From a virus, in the IMG/VR virus record IMGVR_UViG_3300017753_000019, positions 1 through 41,493 of that record: DNA of 41,493 bases, one strand, 5' to 3'. Shown here in pieces: positions 6,198 to 25,257 of this stretch. Made by a program: the position numbers and the translations under genes. Position 1 is the first letter of the stretch; each line of letters starts with the position of its first letter. Under the pieces are notes generated by a model. That model was not told the origin of the DNA and ran no database searches. It saw nothing but the letters and a program-made list of their open reading frames with translations.

Positions 6198-7191
6198 AAC
6201 TAAACTCCTTCCTTGCAATTTGATCTAATTTTTCCATAACCTCTGGTGTAAAGTATTCCTCAGGATCTTTCAAGATTGCTTTGGCATAAACCTTCTTACC
6301 ATTCATCTCATAACGACCTGCAACATTTTTCCAGAGACCTCCCAGTTCACCCAGTTCAAGAAGACCAAAATATCGATCAAGACCACGCTCATCGTAATAG
6401 AGACGTATGGTAACATCTTTGTTCTCCTTACTTAAACGCGACTTAGCAGTCTTTGCTTTGATAAGATTTCCGACAACTGCCGTTCCATCTTTTTCTTTCT
6501 TCTTGCTAAGATGGATAATCGTAGACGCAGCATATTTGAGACCACTACCTCCACCCATTTCTTTTGTAGGCACGTATGCACCGATAACATCGTAGGTATG
6601 ATTGGTAACGATCATTGGAATGTTAGCTTGCCCTAGTTTCAGTGTCAACATTCTGAATGCACCTTTGATGAGTTGGGATTTAGTCATATCCCTAACTTGT
6701 TTGTCATTCAGTGCGTCGTTGATCTCCTTCTCTGTGGAAAGCATCCCCAAAGAGTCTAGCACAAACATACATGGTTTGCGTTCTTCTTCGGGTTTTTTTA
6801 AATATATATCAACTGCTTTCAGTGCAGATTGCCTAAACTGCTCAACAGTAACAACTTGCAAATGAATAAATCGATCTGTATCTATCCCACGACTTGTGAG
6901 TAGAGACTTGTTAATAGCGGCCTCAGTGTCAAAATATAAACAATACCCATCGGGATTAGAGTCAAGATAATTTTTGACGACAGCGAGAGAGAAGAAAGTT
7001 TTGCCAGTAGAAGACTCGCCAGCAATGGCAGTAATCTTATTCCCAGATACACCACCAAATATACTACCTGAACAAAGCCCGTTAAAGATGTACGAACCCG
7101 TGTCCACGTAATTTTCTGTGTCGTCGATGTCTGATCCAAGTTGGGTAAACTCATTACCTATTTCTTTTACAATTTCTTTAAGAAAGTCCAT
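6184..7191 (-). CDS. uvsX: UvsX RecA-like recombinase
   Basis: 335 residues. Strand-exchange ATPase for recombination-dependent replication and repair, acting with UvsY and the gp46/47 nuclease, all encoded in this window. Walker A is GESSTGKT (58-65) and Walker B is MFVLD (141-145). The GGGSGLKYAAS segment fits the DNA-binding loop region of RecA/UvsX. The start at 7191 overlaps the end of the 2OG oxygenase gene by 14 bases. A near-consensus sigma70 promoter (TTGACA, 17 bp, TATATT at 7214-7242) lies inside that upstream gene, giving a leader of about 16 bases. Confidence 0.95.
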   Translation of the reverse strand: MDFLKEIVKEIGNEFTQLGSDIDDTENYVDTGSYIFNGLCSGSIFGGVSGNKITAIAGESSTGKTFFSLAVVKNYLDSNPDGYCLYFDTEAAINKSLLTSRGIDTDRFIHLQVVTVEQFRQSALKAVDIYLKKPEEERKPCMFVLDSLGMLSTEKEINDALNDKQVRDMTKSQLIKGAFRMLTLKLGQANIPMIVTNHTYDVIGAYVPTKEMGGGSGLKYAASTIIHLSKKKEKDGTAVVGNLIKAKTAKSRLSKENKDVTIRLYYDERGLDRYFGLLELGELGGLWKNVAGRYEMNGKKVYAKAILKDPEEYFTPEVMEKLDQIARKEFSYGES

Positions 7192-7669
7192 TTTTTGTCC
7201 ACCAAGTTATGTGAATATACCGGTTCCCGGCAACTTTGTCAACTCCATGTAGGAGTTTTGCACCCTCAAAAATAACGGATAGTCCAGTCTTTGGAGGTAT
7301 GCGATTATTTTCTATGATGGAGTGACCTCCATCAAAATCATCATTCAAATTGCAGATAGAAACCCATGGCGTAACAATTGGTTCATCCCAATGCATATCC
7401 ATATCATATCCATTGGGATAGTATATAATTTGGTCATATGCAAACTTCAAACCCATGTATTTTTCCATTCTTTTTATGTAGGATCTACGAATGGAATTTA
7501 CTCTTATATGAAAGTGATGATACCAGGGAAGTATCCTATGAGAATTTAAAGCAAGAGTAAGGTATGGTGCGTGAGAATGTTCTCCAATATAATGTTTATG
7601 AAAGTAATCAATGAGAAACTGACAATCTTTTTTCTTTATAGAGTTCTCATCATAATAAATTGATTTCAT
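7178..7669 (-). CDS. 2OG-Fe(II) oxygenase (first of three)
   Basis: 163 residues with the double-stranded beta-helix oxygenase signature: iron ligands H93-x-D95 in MHWDEP, distal His141 in LLHGV and the 2-oxoglutarate-binding Arg150 in GNRYIHITWW. The spacing fits prolyl-hydroxylase-like phage enzymes. The substrate is unknown; such enzymes in cyanophages have been suggested to modify proteins or nucleic acids or to sense 2-oxoglutarate. Its start overlaps the preceding stop (TAATG). The 3' end also carries the uvsX promoter, so the GVDKVAGNRYI codons serve two functions. Confidence 0.88.
   Translation of the reverse strand: MKSIYYDENSIKKKDCQFLIDYFHKHYIGEHSHAPYLTLALNSHRILPWYHHFHIRVNSIRRSYIKRMEKYMGLKFAYDQIIYYPNGYDMDMHWDEPIVTPWVSICNLNDDFDGGHSIIENNRIPPKTGLSVIFEGAKLLHGVDKVAGNRYIHITWWTKNGLS
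7214..7242 (-). promoter_or_regulatory. Sigma70-type promoter of uvsX inside the 2OG oxygenase gene
   Basis: TTGACA (7237-7242), 17-base spacer, TATATT (7214-7219) on the minus strand. Start predicted near 7207, 16 bases before the uvsX ATG. Confidence 0.6.
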
Positions 7670-12252: not shown

Positions 12253-12284
12253 GAGACCGCACGAAAGGTCTCGGTTTATTTATA
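12253..12284 (+). terminator. Terminator of the plus-strand pair
   Basis: GAGACC (12253-12258) pairs with GGTCTC (12267-12272) around an 8-base loop, followed by the T-rich GGTTTATTTAT. It lies 38 bases past the 49-aa ORF. With the minus-strand hairpin next to it, it separates two convergent transcripts. Confidence 0.6.
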
Positions 12285-12837
12285 ATGTATTTTCTAAATC
12301 ACTTCTCATGATACGATCTAGAATATTAAAGTTGTAACTAATTATTGTCTTTCTTTGATTTTTGTTTGAAGGTGCTCTATGTATGATGTGACTTGGAAAA
12401 AATATAACGTCACCTTCCTCTGCTCTTACCTTATCAATGTTTCCAGTGAACGGATGCATGAACTCCGTGCGTGGAGAATTTTTCGGTAATTCCAAATAGT
12501 ATACACCAGTGAATTGACCATCATGTATATGCCATCCATGGGAACTTCCTTCAACATATTGTTGAAACCAAATTGCATCCAAAGATCTTATACGAGAAAC
12601 TCCGATGTTAGCACATAGTTCTCTTATACTTTTTTCAAAGTGAGGTAAAAAATATTGCACCCATGGTCGCTCAAAATCACCACCCTGTGGCCAATCAAAC
12701 TTTGATATATTATCAATGAAAGAATTTTGAGCAAGAAAAGGTTGGTCCTCAATATAGTTGAGGATAACCTTTTTTACTTCTTTGTGATCTTTTACTCTGG
12801 TTTTATATACACAATCTTTTAAGATTTGCCTCTTCAT
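12280..12837 (-). CDS. 2OG-Fe(II) oxygenase (second of three)
   Basis: 185 residues resembling the 2OG-FeII_Oxy_5 type. The metal site lies in GWHIHDGQFTGVYYL (His103, His105, Asp106), the distal ligand is His153 in FPSHIIHRA and the cosubstrate Arg is Arg162 in NQRKTIISYNFN. The first motif is HIHD rather than a plain HxD, as in this subfamily, so the exact ligands are uncertain. Substrate unknown. The ATG overlaps the regA stop by ATGA. It is the last gene before a strong terminator. Confidence 0.85.
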   Translation of the reverse strand: MKRQILKDCVYKTRVKDHKEVKKVILNYIEDQPFLAQNSFIDNISKFDWPQGGDFERPWVQYFLPHFEKSIRELCANIGVSRIRSLDAIWFQQYVEGSSHGWHIHDGQFTGVYYLELPKNSPRTEFMHPFTGNIDKVRAEEGDVIFFPSHIIHRAPSNKNQRKTIISYNFNILDRIMRSDLENTL

Positions 12838-16821: not shown

Positions 16822-17335
16822 ACGGTTGGGGGTTGTCATTACAGAGACCAGAGAAGTGGTATAGAAGGATGCAATAGTGAATTGCTTTTAGGATGTCCTG
16901 TTTGGACTTCCCATCTTTCTTACCGAAGCGAGAAAGATATTTGATTGCATTAGATCGACAGAAAGGTTCTGCATCACCAATACCTTCAATGAGGTCAAGA
17001 GTCTGAGTCTTAGACTCTTTTGAAGTATAGTGGGAACGGTAGGTCATTCCCAAGTAATCACGAACTTCTTTAAGGATTACATCTTCATTGTACTTCCATC
17101 TTTTGTTGTTGTTATTAGTTGTTGGGAGATCAGGAACTCCTACCTCATCTTGACAGAGATCAAAACTGATAGTGTCTTCACCATAATAAGAGGGATACAC
17201 TTGACTAGCAGCTACCGGTCCATGTTCATCATAGTTGTATTCAAAGATGTTGGAAGCAGTGTCAGTGTCAGGGAGATCAAATTCATTAATTTTGTAGTTC
17301 ATAGCATCATATAGTAGAGACCAAGAGTTTGTCAT
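16808..17335 (-). CDS. DUF3310 protein with low-similarity N-terminal extension
   Basis: 175 residues. The C-terminal half (about 100-165) matches DUF3310: SHYTSKESKTQTLDLIEGIG, then C-R-S-N-A-I-K-Y-L-x-R-F-G-K-K-D-G and a following helix. DUF3310 occurs in many phages and is often linked to T7 gp1.7-type nucleotide kinases; that link is recalled and not verified. The N-terminal 95 residues are acidic and look poorly ordered. It sits between the CobS-like ATPase (ATGA overlap) and gp45. Confidence 0.8.
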   Translation of the reverse strand: MTNSWSLLYDAMNYKINEFDLPDTDTASNIFEYNYDEHGPVAASQVYPSYYGEDTISFDLCQDEVGVPDLPTTNNNNKRWKYNEDVILKEVRDYLGMTYRSHYTSKESKTQTLDLIEGIGDAEPFCRSNAIKYLSRFGKKDGKSKQDILKAIHYCILLYHFSGLCNDNPQPYETF

Positions 17336-18387
17336 ACAGATTCTACATCAAACTGTACGTCGATGTCAACCTTATCATAGAGATCCATGAAAGCTTGTTT
17401 AGTTTCATCATCAAAACGATTCAAACATACTTCGATTGATTTTGCTTTGTCTTCAAAGATAGCATAAGCATTGACAATGTGAACCAAGCGGCGTGTACTG
17501 ATCAACTCATCGACACCACCATCATAGAATGTCTTACGGATGATGTCTGCCCAGTCACAGAGACGCTTACAGAAATCTGCATCACTACAAATCTTACCAA
17601 GAATTTTTTGTTCAGTGGCAGCAGTAGGATATTCCTGCTCAAAAGTTACAGGGAAACGTTCAAGGAATGCTTCGTTAAGAACATTAGTGCCAATAAAACG
17701 ATCATCGTCAGAACCCTTACCTTTTGTGTTTGCAGTAGCAATTACATTGAATCCCTTTCTAGGAGAGATAAACCTACCAATCTTCTTCAAGAAGACACCT
17801 TTACCTTCTAGGATGGATTGCAAGCAAAGAATTTTATTAGATGCAAGGTCCACTTCATCCAAAAGCAGGATTGCGCCGCGTTCCAGGGCTTCAATAACTG
17901 GACCATTGTGCCATACTGTCTCGCCATTAATAAGGCGGAACCCACCAATAAGGTCGTCTTCATCGGTTTCTACTGTGATATTGACACGGATAAGTTCTCT
18001 GCCCAACGCTGCACACGCTTGCTCAACTCCGAACGTTTTACCGTTACCAGAAAGACCCGTGATGAACGTTGGATAAAACAGATTGGACTTAATAATCTTT
18101 TTAATATCAGCGAAGTTACCAAAGCTGACGAAGGTATCATCTTTTGAAGGAATAAGGTTTTGCTCCACAGCAGGAATTGCAGGAGGTGCTTGATAAGTTT
18201 TCTCTAATTTTTGTTGCAAAGTCAGATTCCACTTACCACGTCCTACTTTATATTGATCAAGACGCTTGGTGATTGTTTGATATGAGATATCATTCGATGC
18301 ACAATATCCTCTAACATCAGCAGCAACAATCTCATCACCATATAAATCTTTCAGATTGTCAAGAATGTGTTCTGTTGATTGGGACAT
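17332..18387 (-). CDS. cobS: CobS-like MoxR-type AAA+ ATPase
   Basis: 351 residues. Walker A GLSGNGKT (111-118), Walker B ILLLDEVD (173-180), sensor 1 IATAN (216-220) and NEAFLERFPVTFE with the likely arginine finger. The first 65 residues form a separate helical domain. In T4-like cyanophages this gene is labelled cobS after the cobaltochelatase ATPase subunit, but it lacks the rest of a B12 pathway in this window. Its neighbour two genes upstream (19339-21438) has the CobT-like VWA domain, so a MoxR/VWA machine is plausible. ACGGAG before the ATG is the likely ribosome site. Confidence 0.88.
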   Translation of the reverse strand: MSQSTEHILDNLKDLYGDEIVAADVRGYCASNDISYQTITKRLDQYKVGRGKWNLTLQQKLEKTYQAPPAIPAVEQNLIPSKDDTFVSFGNFADIKKIIKSNLFYPTFITGLSGNGKTFGVEQACAALGRELIRVNITVETDEDDLIGGFRLINGETVWHNGPVIEALERGAILLLDEVDLASNKILCLQSILEGKGVFLKKIGRFISPRKGFNVIATANTKGKGSDDDRFIGTNVLNEAFLERFPVTFEQEYPTAATEQKILGKICSDADFCKRLCDWADIIRKTFYDGGVDELISTRRLVHIVNAYAIFEDKAKSIEVCLNRFDDETKQAFMDLYDKVDIDVQFDVESV

Positions 18388-18400
18388 TAGTTCGTTTCGT

Positions 18401-18811
18401 TTACTCCGTAATTATAACGGAGGATGGGTTGCTGTGGGAGGGTGGGTAGTTAGGTTTCCGAAGTGTCACAGTGGGTTTTTCCTCAAACGGTCTTATGTAC
18501 TCATGATGAACCGTTTTACCAGCATTAAATTTTCCAATCATAAATTCATACCCAACTGTGGGATCACACTCCCCACAAGTAAAGATATCACATACTGCCA
18601 TTTCTTTTTCAGGCCAAGTGTGAATACTAATATGACTTTCTGCCAGTAGAGTTACCGCTGTTACTCCCTGAGGAGTGAATTGATGTGATACTGTATTTAA
18701 CCAAGTAGCACCACATTGCACTGAGGTCTGATACAGAACGTTCTCAATGTATATCCTATCATTAAGAAGGTTCTTGTCACAATCATAAAGAGTGAATAGA
18801 ATATGTTTCAT
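18401..18811 (-). CDS. speD: S-adenosylmethionine decarboxylase
   Basis: 136 residues, bacterial SpeD type. Self-processing site Glu58-Ser59 in LAESHISIHTWPE, where Ser59 becomes the pyruvoyl cofactor; His64 and Cys79 (CDIFTCG) are the other conserved catalytic residues. The product, decarboxylated AdoMet, supplies aminopropyl groups for spermidine. speD is common in marine T4-like cyanophages; polyamines may aid DNA packing or host translation. The proenzyme is complete. The stop codon lies beside a dyad that contains TATAAT, possibly regulating cobS. Confidence 0.95.
   Translation of the reverse strand: MKHILFTLYDCDKNLLNDRIYIENVLYQTSVQCGATWLNTVSHQFTPQGVTAVTLLAESHISIHTWPEKEMAVCDIFTCGECDPTVGYEFMIGKFNAGKTVHHEYIRPFEEKPTVTLRKPNYPPSHSNPSSVIITE
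18404..18422 (-). promoter_or_regulatory. Dyad containing a TATAAT, possible cobS promoter/operator
   Basis: CTCCGT and ACGGAG arms flank a 7-base centre holding TATAAT on the minus strand (18411-18416). It lies at the speD stop, about 20 bases before the cobS ATG. There is no good -35 box. One arm also supplies the GGAG ribosome site, so it may instead be an RNA hairpin that hides it. Confidence 0.35.
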
Positions 18812-18814
18812 TGA

Positions 18815-19342
18815 TTAGACCCAATCTGGTTTTCTATTTGGTAAGCGAAGGTAGTTATCCTTTACCCACGGTTTAGATGCAATATACATCTTGTAAGCAG
18901 TAAATATATCGATGCTCGTATCATATTTAAACTCATCGGGTCCTGCAAAAACAAAGGGTGTTGTGCCCTTCCCACTGCGACCTTGTAGATCTGCTGTGGG
19001 AAGTATCTCTTTTGCTGCTAGAAGGGTCTTCTGACACGTGTGTGCCTTACCATAGCGAGCAGTGTACTCATCACACATAGCAAGTCCATGAGCAAGTAAC
19101 CATTGCCAGTTGGTCACAAACTCATTCGCCCACTTGGTGCATGGGTGGTTACGAAAAGCACCCTTCTCAGTAGCATAGGGAGTACCGTCTGCTCTGGGAA
19201 GAGTGCCAAACCCATGACCCCATTTGTCAGAGCATACAATAGCAAGCATCTGACAAGTTTCTAGGGGCATCTTGACAATATGCTTGTCAGGTAGAACCCT
19301 AGCAGAATGCCAGGGACTAGGATCAGTCACAAAAATATTCAC
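18815..19342 (-). CDS. Conserved phage protein with HPCxxWA motif
   Basis: 175 residues. It has a DPSPWHSARVLPDKHIVKM opening, ETCQMLAIV helix, NHPCTKWANE motif and AMCDEYTARYGKAH. Many phages and some bacteria have related proteins; I recall them being labelled as pyrimidine-dimer glycosylase-like in places, but I cannot confirm this. The invariant D, H, K and C/W residues suggest an enzyme. It lies between the VWA protein and speD, with a near-consensus promoter (19370-19398) inside the upstream gene giving a 21-base leader. Confidence 0.75.
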   Translation of the reverse strand: MNIFVTDPSPWHSARVLPDKHIVKMPLETCQMLAIVCSDKWGHGFGTLPRADGTPYATEKGAFRNHPCTKWANEFVTNWQWLLAHGLAMCDEYTARYGKAHTCQKTLLAAKEILPTADLQGRSGKGTTPFVFAGPDEFKYDTSIDIFTAYKMYIASKPWVKDNYLRLPNRKPDWV

Positions 19343-21438
19343 GCAACTAACTCCACGAACTCCGAAAGAATTTTACGATTGAACTTGGATTTTGTCAAGG
19401 ACTTCTTGAAGGCAGCACGGATAGCCCCCTTGCTCGCACCCTCAGCAACGTCAAAATCAACAGTGTTATGCATGTTGGATTGATTCATCACAAACATCTT
19501 AGCGTAAGCAGGAACATCAACAGCAGCAGATTTTTGTTTTACGAACGTTTTGACATATTTTGAAATAAGATTTGGATCTTCAACTTTTCTTTTCAGAAAC
19601 TTAGTAAACTCAGTAGTGCTAGACGGTCTGATACCAATAATATTTACATCAGGATTTCTATCAGTAAAGTTTTTAATCAAATCATCTACACTATCCCACT
19701 TTTCTAGTTTGTAAGTTGTCCGAAGAACAGGATCACGAAGATAAACATTGTCATTAAAATTAAGTGAGGATGGAACGATTACTTCCTCTCCCTGATAAGT
19801 GGTACGCATTCTTCCAAAGGTAAGGAACTGAGATTCTCCATCAGTCAGAATAACAGTATGAACTTTTTGAAGTCTCTTCTGAGATTTAAACTCAGGAATA
19901 ATATTATGAAGACACAAAATGACTTCATTAAGAGGAGTACCACTCAAACCAAATCCCATGGGAACGTGAATTCGTTGATATCCTACGGATAGATTCCAAA
20001 AATTAAGACACTGTTTCTCAAATTCCATGGCATTACAATCACTATTCATGAATTCAAGTAGACGGAAACTCTTTTCAATCCACAATTCATTTGGTTTAGG
20101 GTCATCAAGCAAACTACTGCGATGTCCTTCATCCTCAACATCTTCATGCCAACAGTTTGTAAATGCATAGACTCGGAAAGGAATATTAACCTTACGACAG
20201 AACCAAGCAAGATTGAACAATTGCTTTGCAGTGTCTTCAAGACATCCTCCCATAGATCCTGACCAATCAAGAATGAAAACCAATCCATGATTTTTTCCAT
20301 CAGGAATAGTAGTTACTTTCTTGAATAAATCTTCATTGAATTTATAGGTATGAAGTTTACTACAATCCAATACACCAGTTCTACTGATTGAAGCACGTGA
20401 GTAAGAGTCTGCTGACTTGCGACACTCAAACTCTTTGACCATATAATTTACTTCTTTCTGAACAGACTTCTTATATTTTGCATACGCTTCTTTGAGATAT
20501 ATCATTGGGTTGCAACGATCATCAATATCACGATACATAATATCCCAAAACAAACTCAATTTATTATCAATCTCTTTGTTAGGAATGACTGCCTTTTCAA
20601 TGGGAATATCAGGAATCTGAACATAGCGAGATTCTCTACCACCAAAACTAGCCAGGTTCCTGATTGCTCCACTTTCAGACTCAGCAGTATTTACAGAAGG
20701 CTCAGTAGAATCCTGGCGAATATCAGAATTGCCACTATCCATATCGTCTTCATCAGAATCATCCCAATTATCAATAGGATCGGACTCAGAGTCATCACTG
20801 CTATCACTCCTATCGTCCACATCAGTGCTGTTCCCCATCTCCGATCCCGAAGTAATTTCCTCACTCTCCGAGACATCTTCCTTCTTTGGTTGTTGAGTTT
20901 TTTCTTTGTCGAATAAGTAGAGAAGTTTAGCGGCAGTGATGACATCTTCCCAAGTTTCAGAGTTTTGAATGGATTGAACGATTGGTTGCTCTTCAAGAGA
21001 GAACTTGATACCGAGGAAAGGACCAACCTTGAAGTGTAGATTTACACGGTCTGCAAGAGACAACTTGGTAAAATCTTCTCCCTCAGTAGAGAAGAAGTCC
21101 ATATCATGAAACTCTTGATATCCTTTGTAGAAAGTTTTAGAAAGACCTGCAAACCTACGTTTGATAAGTTTTTCAATACGAACATCCTCCACTACATTAA
21201 CAAACGCATGTGGAACATCCCTAGGAGGGTCTACATTAGGAGTATAGAGGGCATGTCCAACCTCATGAGCAACTAGAAGATCAAAGATCTCTTCGCTTGC
21301 ACGCTCCCATACAGGGAGAGTAAGAACACGGGTATCAACATTGAACTGAGCTGTCTGGACATGCTTGTGTTCGACAATCAGATTCTCTTGTGCCAGGAGT
21401 TTGGCAACCGTACCCTTGACTTCTAGGTTGACAGACAT
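19339..21438 (-). CDS. CobT-like protein: HEXXH metallopeptidase-type domain plus VWA domain
   Basis: 699 residues. The N-terminal domain has AHEVGHALYTP (His58, Glu59, His62), a zinc-peptidase motif, and NVVEDVRIE (81-89), whose Glu is placed as a third metal ligand. Residues 187-255 are a Ser/Asp/Glu-rich acidic linker, as in CobT. The VWA domain starts near 384 with a complete MIDAS DWSGS (Asp391, Ser393, Ser395) and continues through VILTDGES. The combination matches cyanophage proteins called CobT or peptidase. The CobS-like ATPase is encoded two genes downstream. It probably forms a MoxR/VWA-type remodelling complex; substrate unknown. Confidence 0.85.
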   Translation of the reverse strand: MSVNLEVKGTVAKLLAQENLIVEHKHVQTAQFNVDTRVLTLPVWERASEEIFDLLVAHEVGHALYTPNVDPPRDVPHAFVNVVEDVRIEKLIKRRFAGLSKTFYKGYQEFHDMDFFSTEGEDFTKLSLADRVNLHFKVGPFLGIKFSLEEQPIVQSIQNSETWEDVITAAKLLYLFDKEKTQQPKKEDVSESEEITSGSEMGNSTDVDDRSDSSDDSESDPIDNWDDSDEDDMDSGNSDIRQDSTEPSVNTAESESGAIRNLASFGGRESRYVQIPDIPIEKAVIPNKEIDNKLSLFWDIMYRDIDDRCNPMIYLKEAYAKYKKSVQKEVNYMVKEFECRKSADSYSRASISRTGVLDCSKLHTYKFNEDLFKKVTTIPDGKNHGLVFILDWSGSMGGCLEDTAKQLFNLAWFCRKVNIPFRVYAFTNCWHEDVEDEGHRSSLLDDPKPNELWIEKSFRLLEFMNSDCNAMEFEKQCLNFWNLSVGYQRIHVPMGFGLSGTPLNEVILCLHNIIPEFKSQKRLQKVHTVILTDGESQFLTFGRMRTTYQGEEVIVPSSLNFNDNVYLRDPVLRTTYKLEKWDSVDDLIKNFTDRNPDVNIIGIRPSSTTEFTKFLKRKVEDPNLISKYVKTFVKQKSAAVDVPAYAKMFVMNQSNMHNTVDFDVAEGASKGAIRAAFKKSLTKSKFNRKILSEFVELVA
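19370..19398 (-). promoter_or_regulatory. Sigma70-type promoter inside the VWA gene
   Basis: TTGACA (19393-19398), 17-base spacer, TAAAAT (19370-19375) on the minus strand. Predicted start about 19363, 21 bases before the ATG at 19342. It is embedded in the codons for LTKSKFNRKI. Confidence 0.5.
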
Positions 21439-25229: not shown

Positions 25230-25257
25230 ATTATAGCATACTTTCAGGGCTTGACAA
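25230..25257 (-). promoter_or_regulatory. Sigma70-type promoter of gp55 and the long operon
   Basis: TTGTCA (25252-25257), 16-base spacer, extended -10 TGCTATAAT (TATAAT at 25230-25235). The -35 overlaps a dyad (25242-25267). It shares TGCTATAAT with the polymerase operon promoter. Predicted start near 25223. Confidence 0.75.

Follow-up and report, generated by a model that had tools for sequence, protein, structure and literature searches.

In the 41,493-base virus record IMGVR_UViG_3300017753_000019, analysed over its full length and hereafter called the window, two minus-strand genes encode an AAA+ ATPase of family phrog_249 ('CobS') and a 699-residue partner of family phrog_459, which combines an N-terminal HExxH motif with a C-terminal VWA domain. 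Judging from their sequences, we consider that the pair is best read as a remodelling machine of the MoxR/VWA kind whose zinc peptidase is probably active, and we give this reading a probability of about 0.6. The window covers 41 kb of the genome of a T4-like cyanomyovirus and includes genes for UvsW, the late sigma factor gp55, gp47, gp46, gp45, gp44, the head protease gp21, the scaffold protein gp22, the capsid protein gp23 and the sheath protein gp18. The open reading frames (ORFs) and other features discussed here are collected in Table 1.

A conserved pair of ATPase and VWA genes

The ATPase ORF is intact, at the position and on the strand reported in a preliminary description of the window, and the AAA+ motifs credited to it there are all present: Walker A (GLSGNGKT, residues 111-118), Walker B (LLLDEVD), sensor 1 (N220), an arginine-finger region (R244) and sensor 2 (TRR). 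It matches the Pfam family AAA_5 (PF07728, E 1.7e-18), which places it in the helix-2-insert (AAA_5/MoxR) clade, and phrog_249 (E 1.9e-137), whose label is 'porphyrin biosynthesis'. Among single-domain proteins of known structure, CobS (9ujv_A) is its nearest relative, reaching 94 bits against the family profile, followed by NorQ and CbbQ; individual AAA domains of midasin reach at most 46 bits, the total score of midasin being high because it contains several of them. The partner ORF is also intact on the minus strand where it had been placed, and the HEVGH motif (residues 58-62), downstream glutamate (E84), acidic linker and complete metal ion-dependent adhesion site (MIDAS) previously noticed in it were all found. 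It matches phrog_459 (E 2.4e-238), labelled 'peptidase'; the annotations of these two phrog families treat them as unrelated genes. The adjacency of an AAA+ gene to a VWA gene with a complete MIDAS is that of a MoxR/VWA pair.

The two genes behave as one unit. In a tblastn search over 50,697 phage records, with matches tallied by organism name and not record by record, the VWA gene was found in 463 records, including 365 named Synechococcus, 61 Cyanophage and 24 Prochlorococcus, and the ATPase counts under these names are identical. The control gene uvsW was found in 376 Synechococcus and 61 Cyanophage records, and from these counts both genes of the pair seem to be missing in about 11 Synechococcus phages; the pair is near-universal in cyanomyoviruses. 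With the VWA protein as query, 80 IMG/VR loci were retrieved, of which 74 contain the ATPase. Five of the six loci without it break off no more than 130 bases from the VWA match, so that a single one (L054) is an informative exception and the ATPase is present at 74/75 loci with enough flank. Conversely, 74 of 80 loci retrieved with the ATPase contain the VWA gene, each time in the same orientation; of the six that do not, a single locus (L177) extends beyond 600 bases upstream, again giving 74/75. In S-CREM2 the pair has been relocated as a unit to a different neighbourhood, and the Ochrobactrum phage (Kyanoviridae) retains the order gp46-VWA-ATPase-gp45. The joint gain and loss that the preliminary description had proposed to check across cyanophages is supported by the matching counts, the two-way co-occurrence and the joint move.

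VWA and ATPase distances are also linked beyond what neighbouring genes explain. Over 17 loci, a small sample in which pairwise distances are not independent, the partial distance correlation between the two is 0.51, the strongest that the VWA protein has with any partner, compared with 0.47 for gp46-gp47 and 0.41 for gp45-gp44, both of which are known complexes. Farther afield, Microbacterium phage Pumpernickel and Staphylococcus phage Zeno encode a distant AAA ATPase (far branches) whose next gene is no VWA protein. Viral-contig scans for relatives of the Ochrobactrum-phage and Vibrio phage JSF27 VWA proteins returned none, and the query from Microcystis phage Mae-Yong1326-1 returned one weak locus.

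The C-terminal half of the partner is predicted to adopt a VWA fold of the NorD/midasin type. A sequence search of the protein against the PDB gave low-complexity matches only; a fold search with the predicted model gave the NorD VWA domain (Z 14.9) and the MDN1 MIDAS domain (Z 14.8) ahead of generic VWA domains (about 11), the midasin/Rea1 MIDAS matches scoring 14.8 and 13.3. The MIDAS is complete (D391xS393xS395, T501, D533) and is invariant or nearly so in 46-77 cyanophage relatives. Given such invariance across 46-77 relatives, we regard the motif residues of the ATPase, the zinc site and the MIDAS as not due to chance. The linker at about residues 183-250 is 37% Asp/Glu with 16% mean identity, and the predicted local distance difference test score (pLDDT) is below 50 for residues 184-244. 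Residues 311-382, in contrast to this linker, have 68% mean identity and are among the most conserved parts of the protein; in the AlphaFold2 model they begin with a long helix (311-348), and the NorD and midasin fold matches reach into them. By analogy, they may form a pore finger as in NorD.

Table 1. Coordinates of the features discussed, on the numbering of the window.
Feature	Position	Strand	Basis
CobS-like / MoxR-clade AAA+ ATPase, 351 aa, phrog_249	17332..18387	-	Pfam, phrog and solved-relative profile matches
VWA co-chaperone with N-terminal HExxH metallopeptidase domain (predicted), 699 aa, phrog_459	19339..21438	-	sequence, profiles, model
N-terminal zincin-like domain, residues 1-182; predicted zinc/catalytic H58, E59, H62, E84	20893..21438	-	invariance and AlphaFold2 model
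Acidic low-complexity linker, residues 183-250	20689..20892	-	pLDDT, identity, composition
Helix and loop preceding VWA core, residues 311-382; candidate NorD-like pore 'finger'	20293..20508	-	conservation and model
VWA domain with MIDAS (D391, S393, S395, T501, D533), residues 383-699	19342..20292	-	fold match and invariance
SpeD, S-adenosylmethionine decarboxylase; neighbour, outside the machine	18401..18811	-	PF02675, E 3.9e-32
DenV-family (PF03013) protein, phrog_624; neighbour, outside the machine	18815..19342	-	PF03013, E 1e-15
Candidate sigma-70-type promoter TTGTCA-16-TATAAT, extended -10, upstream of gp55	25230..25257	-	best site in scan, 11/12

We infer the working of such a machine, from the formation and docking of the ring to the binding of zinc, the cutting, its timing and its target, along the following lines. 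The MoxR-clade AAA+ protein, on the CobS/NorQ/midasin side, would form a hexameric ring, onto which the 699-residue partner would dock by its C-terminal VWA domain, with the helix and loop preceding the VWA core probably in the pore, as in NorD. The MIDAS metal would bind the target, ATP hydrolysis would twist the VWA domain relative to the N-terminal domain across the flexible acidic linker and so pull the target, and the N-terminal HExxH...E zinc site would cut it. In NorQD, a VWA finger has been seen in the ring pore and an ATP-driven twist has been proposed (PMC13036017), and the phage pair may, by analogy, work in the same way.

Several known systems share parts of this layout. NorQ/NorD (and CbbQ/CbbO) resemble the phage pair in their order of N-terminal domain, linker and VWA domain, the NorD VWA fold being the closest and NorQ among the nearest ATPases; however, the NorD-like protein that was checked has no HExxH, and the target of NorQD is a membrane enzyme, cNOR. 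The midasin/Rea1 MIDAS domain shares the VWA fold and midasin the AAA clade, but midasin is a single giant eukaryotic protein of ribosome assembly without a peptidase domain. Closest in architecture is the pair described for group 2.2 jumbo phages (PMC7824862), in which, as here, a MoxR ATPase adjoins a vWA protein with an N-terminal metallopeptidase domain; our protein, with its N-terminal HExxH domain fused to a VWA domain, has this architecture. As far as the relevant passages of that paper go, the pair is reported there for phages of gammaproteobacteria and others (group 2.2) and not for the cyanophage group 2.1, whereas the cyanophage pair is a core pair in a replication block, with evidence for its zinc site at the level of residues. 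The preliminary description had seen in the genes a distinct phage module. The pair is not new, however: in cyanophages it has already been named 'cobST' (PMC8651126), and the architecture is known from other jumbo phages (PMC7824862). What is added here is evidence for a peptidase at the level of residues, co-occurrence seen from the side of either gene, the lack of homologues in the hosts sampled, and the removal of SpeD and the DenV-like gene from the module.

The predicted zinc site and the relation to CobT

The N-terminal zinc site appears from its conservation to be under strict selection. Among 46-77 cyanophage proteins, residues H58, E59, H62 and E84 vary little or not at all, and HExxH is kept in 51/51 further sequences although its middle residues vary (HEVGH, HECGH, HEVAH, HEVSH). 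When 24 N-terminal domains of cyanophage, Ochrobactrum-phage and SSU5-type phage-plasmid proteins were aligned, with identity as low as 18%, only nine columns proved invariant: P42, H58, E59, H62, T66, N81, E84, D85 and G98. In the AlphaFold2 model, HExxH lies on helix 49-65 and E84 on the consecutive helix 77-95 (pLDDT about 85-94); in zincins, HExxH and the glutamate likewise lie on two consecutive helices. Weak Pfam hints of a peptidase come from one member (DUF2201_N, 0.003) and from S-CREM2 (Zn_peptidase_2, 0.0025). We consider that HExxH...E is probably an active zinc metallopeptidase site.

A different use of the site is conceivable, in which the pair is a chaperone that, like NorQD, inserts metal into a phage metalloenzyme or activates it (class I ribonucleotide reductase would be one example), and the zinc is structural or part of a metal relay. 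NorQD does insert iron (PMC13036017), and of 14 phage and plasmid records with either the pair or a CobS-like ATPase, 11 encode NrdB. However, the pair occurs without NrdB in Vibrio phage JSF27 and in Microcystis phage Mae-Yong1326-1, NrdB is common in large phages anyway, and structural zinc needs no intact catalytic glutamate (E59); we give this explanation very little credence.

Bona fide CobS/CobT also consists of an ATPase and a partner with an N-terminal domain, an acidic linker and a VWA domain, but CobT differs in lacking HExxH and having its own HDxxxH, the cyanophage protein matches no CobT models, and the phages searched have no CobN. HExxH is absent from 31/31 bona fide CobT proteins, taken as those from genomes that score above the family cut-off. 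In these proteins (loci L106-L135) an invariant HDxxxH near the same place (H 31/31, D 30/31, H 31/31) is a possible metal site. No match to the CobT models PF06213 or PF11775 is listed among 46 members of the cyanophage VWA family; on the CobT side, the window protein has only a weak similarity to phrog_5298. The SSU5-type proteins, by contrast, carry HEV[GA]H in 26/26 sequences with a complete N-terminus and match both CobT models (PF06213, 81 bits; PF11775, 334 bits), and for these two reasons they bridge the cyanophage VWA family and CobT. When the cyanophage family was aligned with real CobT by hhalign, the acidic linker dominated and the short pieces EDxRxE, G.LD and DxSGSM occurred in order but were not significant. 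With HMMER, the N-terminal profile gave 43 bits for the Ochrobactrum phage and 24 bits for SSU5-type proteins, while real CobT reached at most 6 bits, which is not significant. The placement of HExxH on CobT is ambiguous: when the alignment is anchored on RGxxD, HExxH coincides with [SA]xAL[RK], and otherwise it comes to lie near the invariant HDxxxH. In sequence terms, then, the link to CobT appears to run through the SSU5-type go-between and the common layout.

CobS-like ATPases were also seen on 2,307 plasmid records, including Klebsiella and E. coli SSU5-type phage-plasmids with CobT-CobS beside DNA polymerase III alpha (L090, L091, L138-L166). Of the 52 genomes in which CobT was matched, nine gave no match to CobN (G166, G174, G233, G236, G273, G281, G301, G309 and G336) and are either incomplete or carriers of lone CobT-like proteins; in G236 and G336 the CobT match is only partial.

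These comparisons bear on the published proposal that the pair is a viral CobST, which would substitute for the motor subunits of cobaltochelatase, hijack host CobN and raise cobalamin (PMC8651126), in line with the customary labelling of 'cobS' as an auxiliary metabolic gene. CobN/ChlH-type proteins are indeed found in 98/101 host-family genomes, with no match to the CobS model in 151 host-family genomes except on one phage contig; CobS is the nearest solved relative of the ATPase, and the HEVGH proteins of SSU5 type match the CobT models. Yet the ATPase scores 52 bits against the CobS equivalog (51.7 bits in a second search), far below the cut-off of 558.55, and a tree whose branches are long joins it to the Ochrobactrum phage (90/99) and leaves it outside CobS. 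The absence of CobT matches in the cyanophage family and of HExxH in CobT also argues against the proposal. No CobN was found in 16 phage or virus records, and the preliminary description had seen no chelatase large subunit in the window. Class I ribonucleotide reductase, an enzyme that needs no B12, is encoded in the cyanophage records tested, so that the phage reductase has no need of a B12 supply. Finally, SSU5-type pairs occur on plasmids of E. coli and Klebsiella, and E. coli, which was in the control set, gave no CobN match. We consider a viral CobST quite improbable. Given a strictly selected zinc site and no CobN in the 16 records, remodelling or cleavage is a better reading than cobalamin synthesis; this part of what the preliminary description had suggested holds up, and the inclusion of SpeD and an HPCxxWA protein in the machine does not (see below).

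A host origin of the genes likewise finds no support. The cyanophage cobS, used as a community marker, has been said to come from one host transfer (PMC9983427), but no homologue of either the ATPase or the VWA protein was found in 121 host-family genomes except on one phage-like contig, which contradicts such a transfer; nor do the genes have, in the genomes sampled, the host homologues that a host-derived auxiliary metabolic gene would have. Within the host-family genomes searched, both genes came solely from a 189-kb contig resembling a T4-like cyanophage in the Prochlorococcus AG-418-C09 single-cell genome (G001:C3, L086). The cyanophage cobT has further been described as 'mistakenly annotated as a peptidase' (PMC8651126). 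Our analysis suggests that this statement is itself doubtful, the protein being CobT-like with an apparently intact peptidase site.

Position among replication genes

On the minus strand the genes run in the order uvsW, gp55, gp47, gp46, a 61-residue ORF, the VWA gene, a DenV-family gene, SpeD, the ATPase, a DUF3310 gene, gp45 and gp44, and the region of the pair is thus flanked by gp46/47 on one side and gp45/gp44 on the other, all replication or recombination genes. The late motif ATAAATA precedes gp18 and gp22 but no gene start in the stretch that runs from uvsW to gp44. A candidate promoter upstream of gp55, the best in a scan in which sigma-70-type sites were modestly above chance overall (64 found, 46 +/- 6 expected), heads the block gp55-gp47-gp46-VWA-...-ATPase-gp45-gp44. 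The pair genes are probably transcribed with the DNA replication and recombination genes, and position and motifs, from which alone the timing is derived since the text of a cyanophage transcriptome paper names neither gene, point to an early or middle role. As the pair lies among replication genes, its target is more likely to act in replication or host takeover than to belong to the virion.

This position also bears on an alternative put forward for group 2.2 jumbo phages (PMC7824862) by analogy with the MoxR-vWA pair of Acidianus two-tailed virus, in which the pair would be a virion-assembly chaperone with peptidolytic processing of structural proteins. The architecture described there, a MoxR ATPase with a vWA protein bearing an N-terminal metallopeptidase, is the same, but the cyanophage genes lie in the replication block and lack upstream late motifs, and the window carries its own canonical prohead protease, gp21. 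In unrelated phages and phage-plasmids, too, the pair stands beside replication genes, for example DNA polymerase III alpha. We judge a role in virion assembly unlikely.

Some observations weigh against a remodelling machine with an active peptidase. The N-terminal-domain profile finds nothing in the PDB, and the matches of the fold search with the complete model were taken up by the VWA half, so that this search speaks to that half alone and the zincin fold of the N-terminal domain is a prediction. The predicted structure of the ATPase is poor (pLDDT 69), and the occurrence of ATAAATA in the window is only slightly above chance (15 sites, 10.3 +/- 3.3 expected). Lastly, CobT-like proteins of an Acinetobacter plasmid and of Pseudomonas phage Nican01 have degenerate zinc motifs (QEVAK and SEISK; L091:1496-3424 and L100:3457-5538) while retaining the pair, so that the machine can exist without a peptidase. 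These proteins represent a natural series of peptidase loss.

Neighbouring genes and biological meaning

The two genes that lie between those of the pair are variable passengers. SpeD was found in 132 of about 450 cyanomyovirus records (104 Synechococcus, 22 Cyanophage and 6 Prochlorococcus; about 30%) and the DenV-like gene in 317 (243, 50 and 24; about 70%), compared with 365, 61 and 24 for the pair, and both shift position between loci. This distribution rules them out as members of the module, in which the preliminary description had included them. The HPCxxWA protein, which had been called unknown and enzyme-like, belongs to PF03013, the family of pyrimidine dimer DNA glycosylase / T4 endonuclease V. 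Its ORF, which encodes a putative glycosylase, has a GTG start, and residue 2 is an asparagine that is invariant in 30 relatives; in T4 DenV, Thr2 is the nucleophile.

A defence or counter-defence system was considered and dropped, as PADLOC gave no match for the ATPase, VWA, SpeD or DenV-family proteins. Elsewhere in the replication and recombination half, the window encodes two 2OG-Fe(II) oxygenase-like proteins (12280-12837 and 7178-7669; PF13759, and PF13640 slightly under the cut-off).

The gene cobS is among the 25 cyanophage core genes (PMC3037559), is listed under B12 synthesis and is counted towards vitamin B12 in ocean surveys. We tentatively suggest, at somewhat less than even odds, that the cyanophage 'cobS' instead drives a core phage machine by which a specific protein is unfolded and cut while the genome replicates, and that bona fide CobT has a common ancestry with such an ATPase-coupled zinc peptidase but has lost the active site. 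The B12 label of the known cyanophage pair looks wrong and its naming misleading. If the reading of the pair as a remodelling machine with a zinc peptidase is true, cyanophage 'cobS' in metagenomes should no longer be interpreted in terms of B12, and single-residue mutants would make it possible to test a core step of cyanophage infection, the cleavage or remodelling of a protein.

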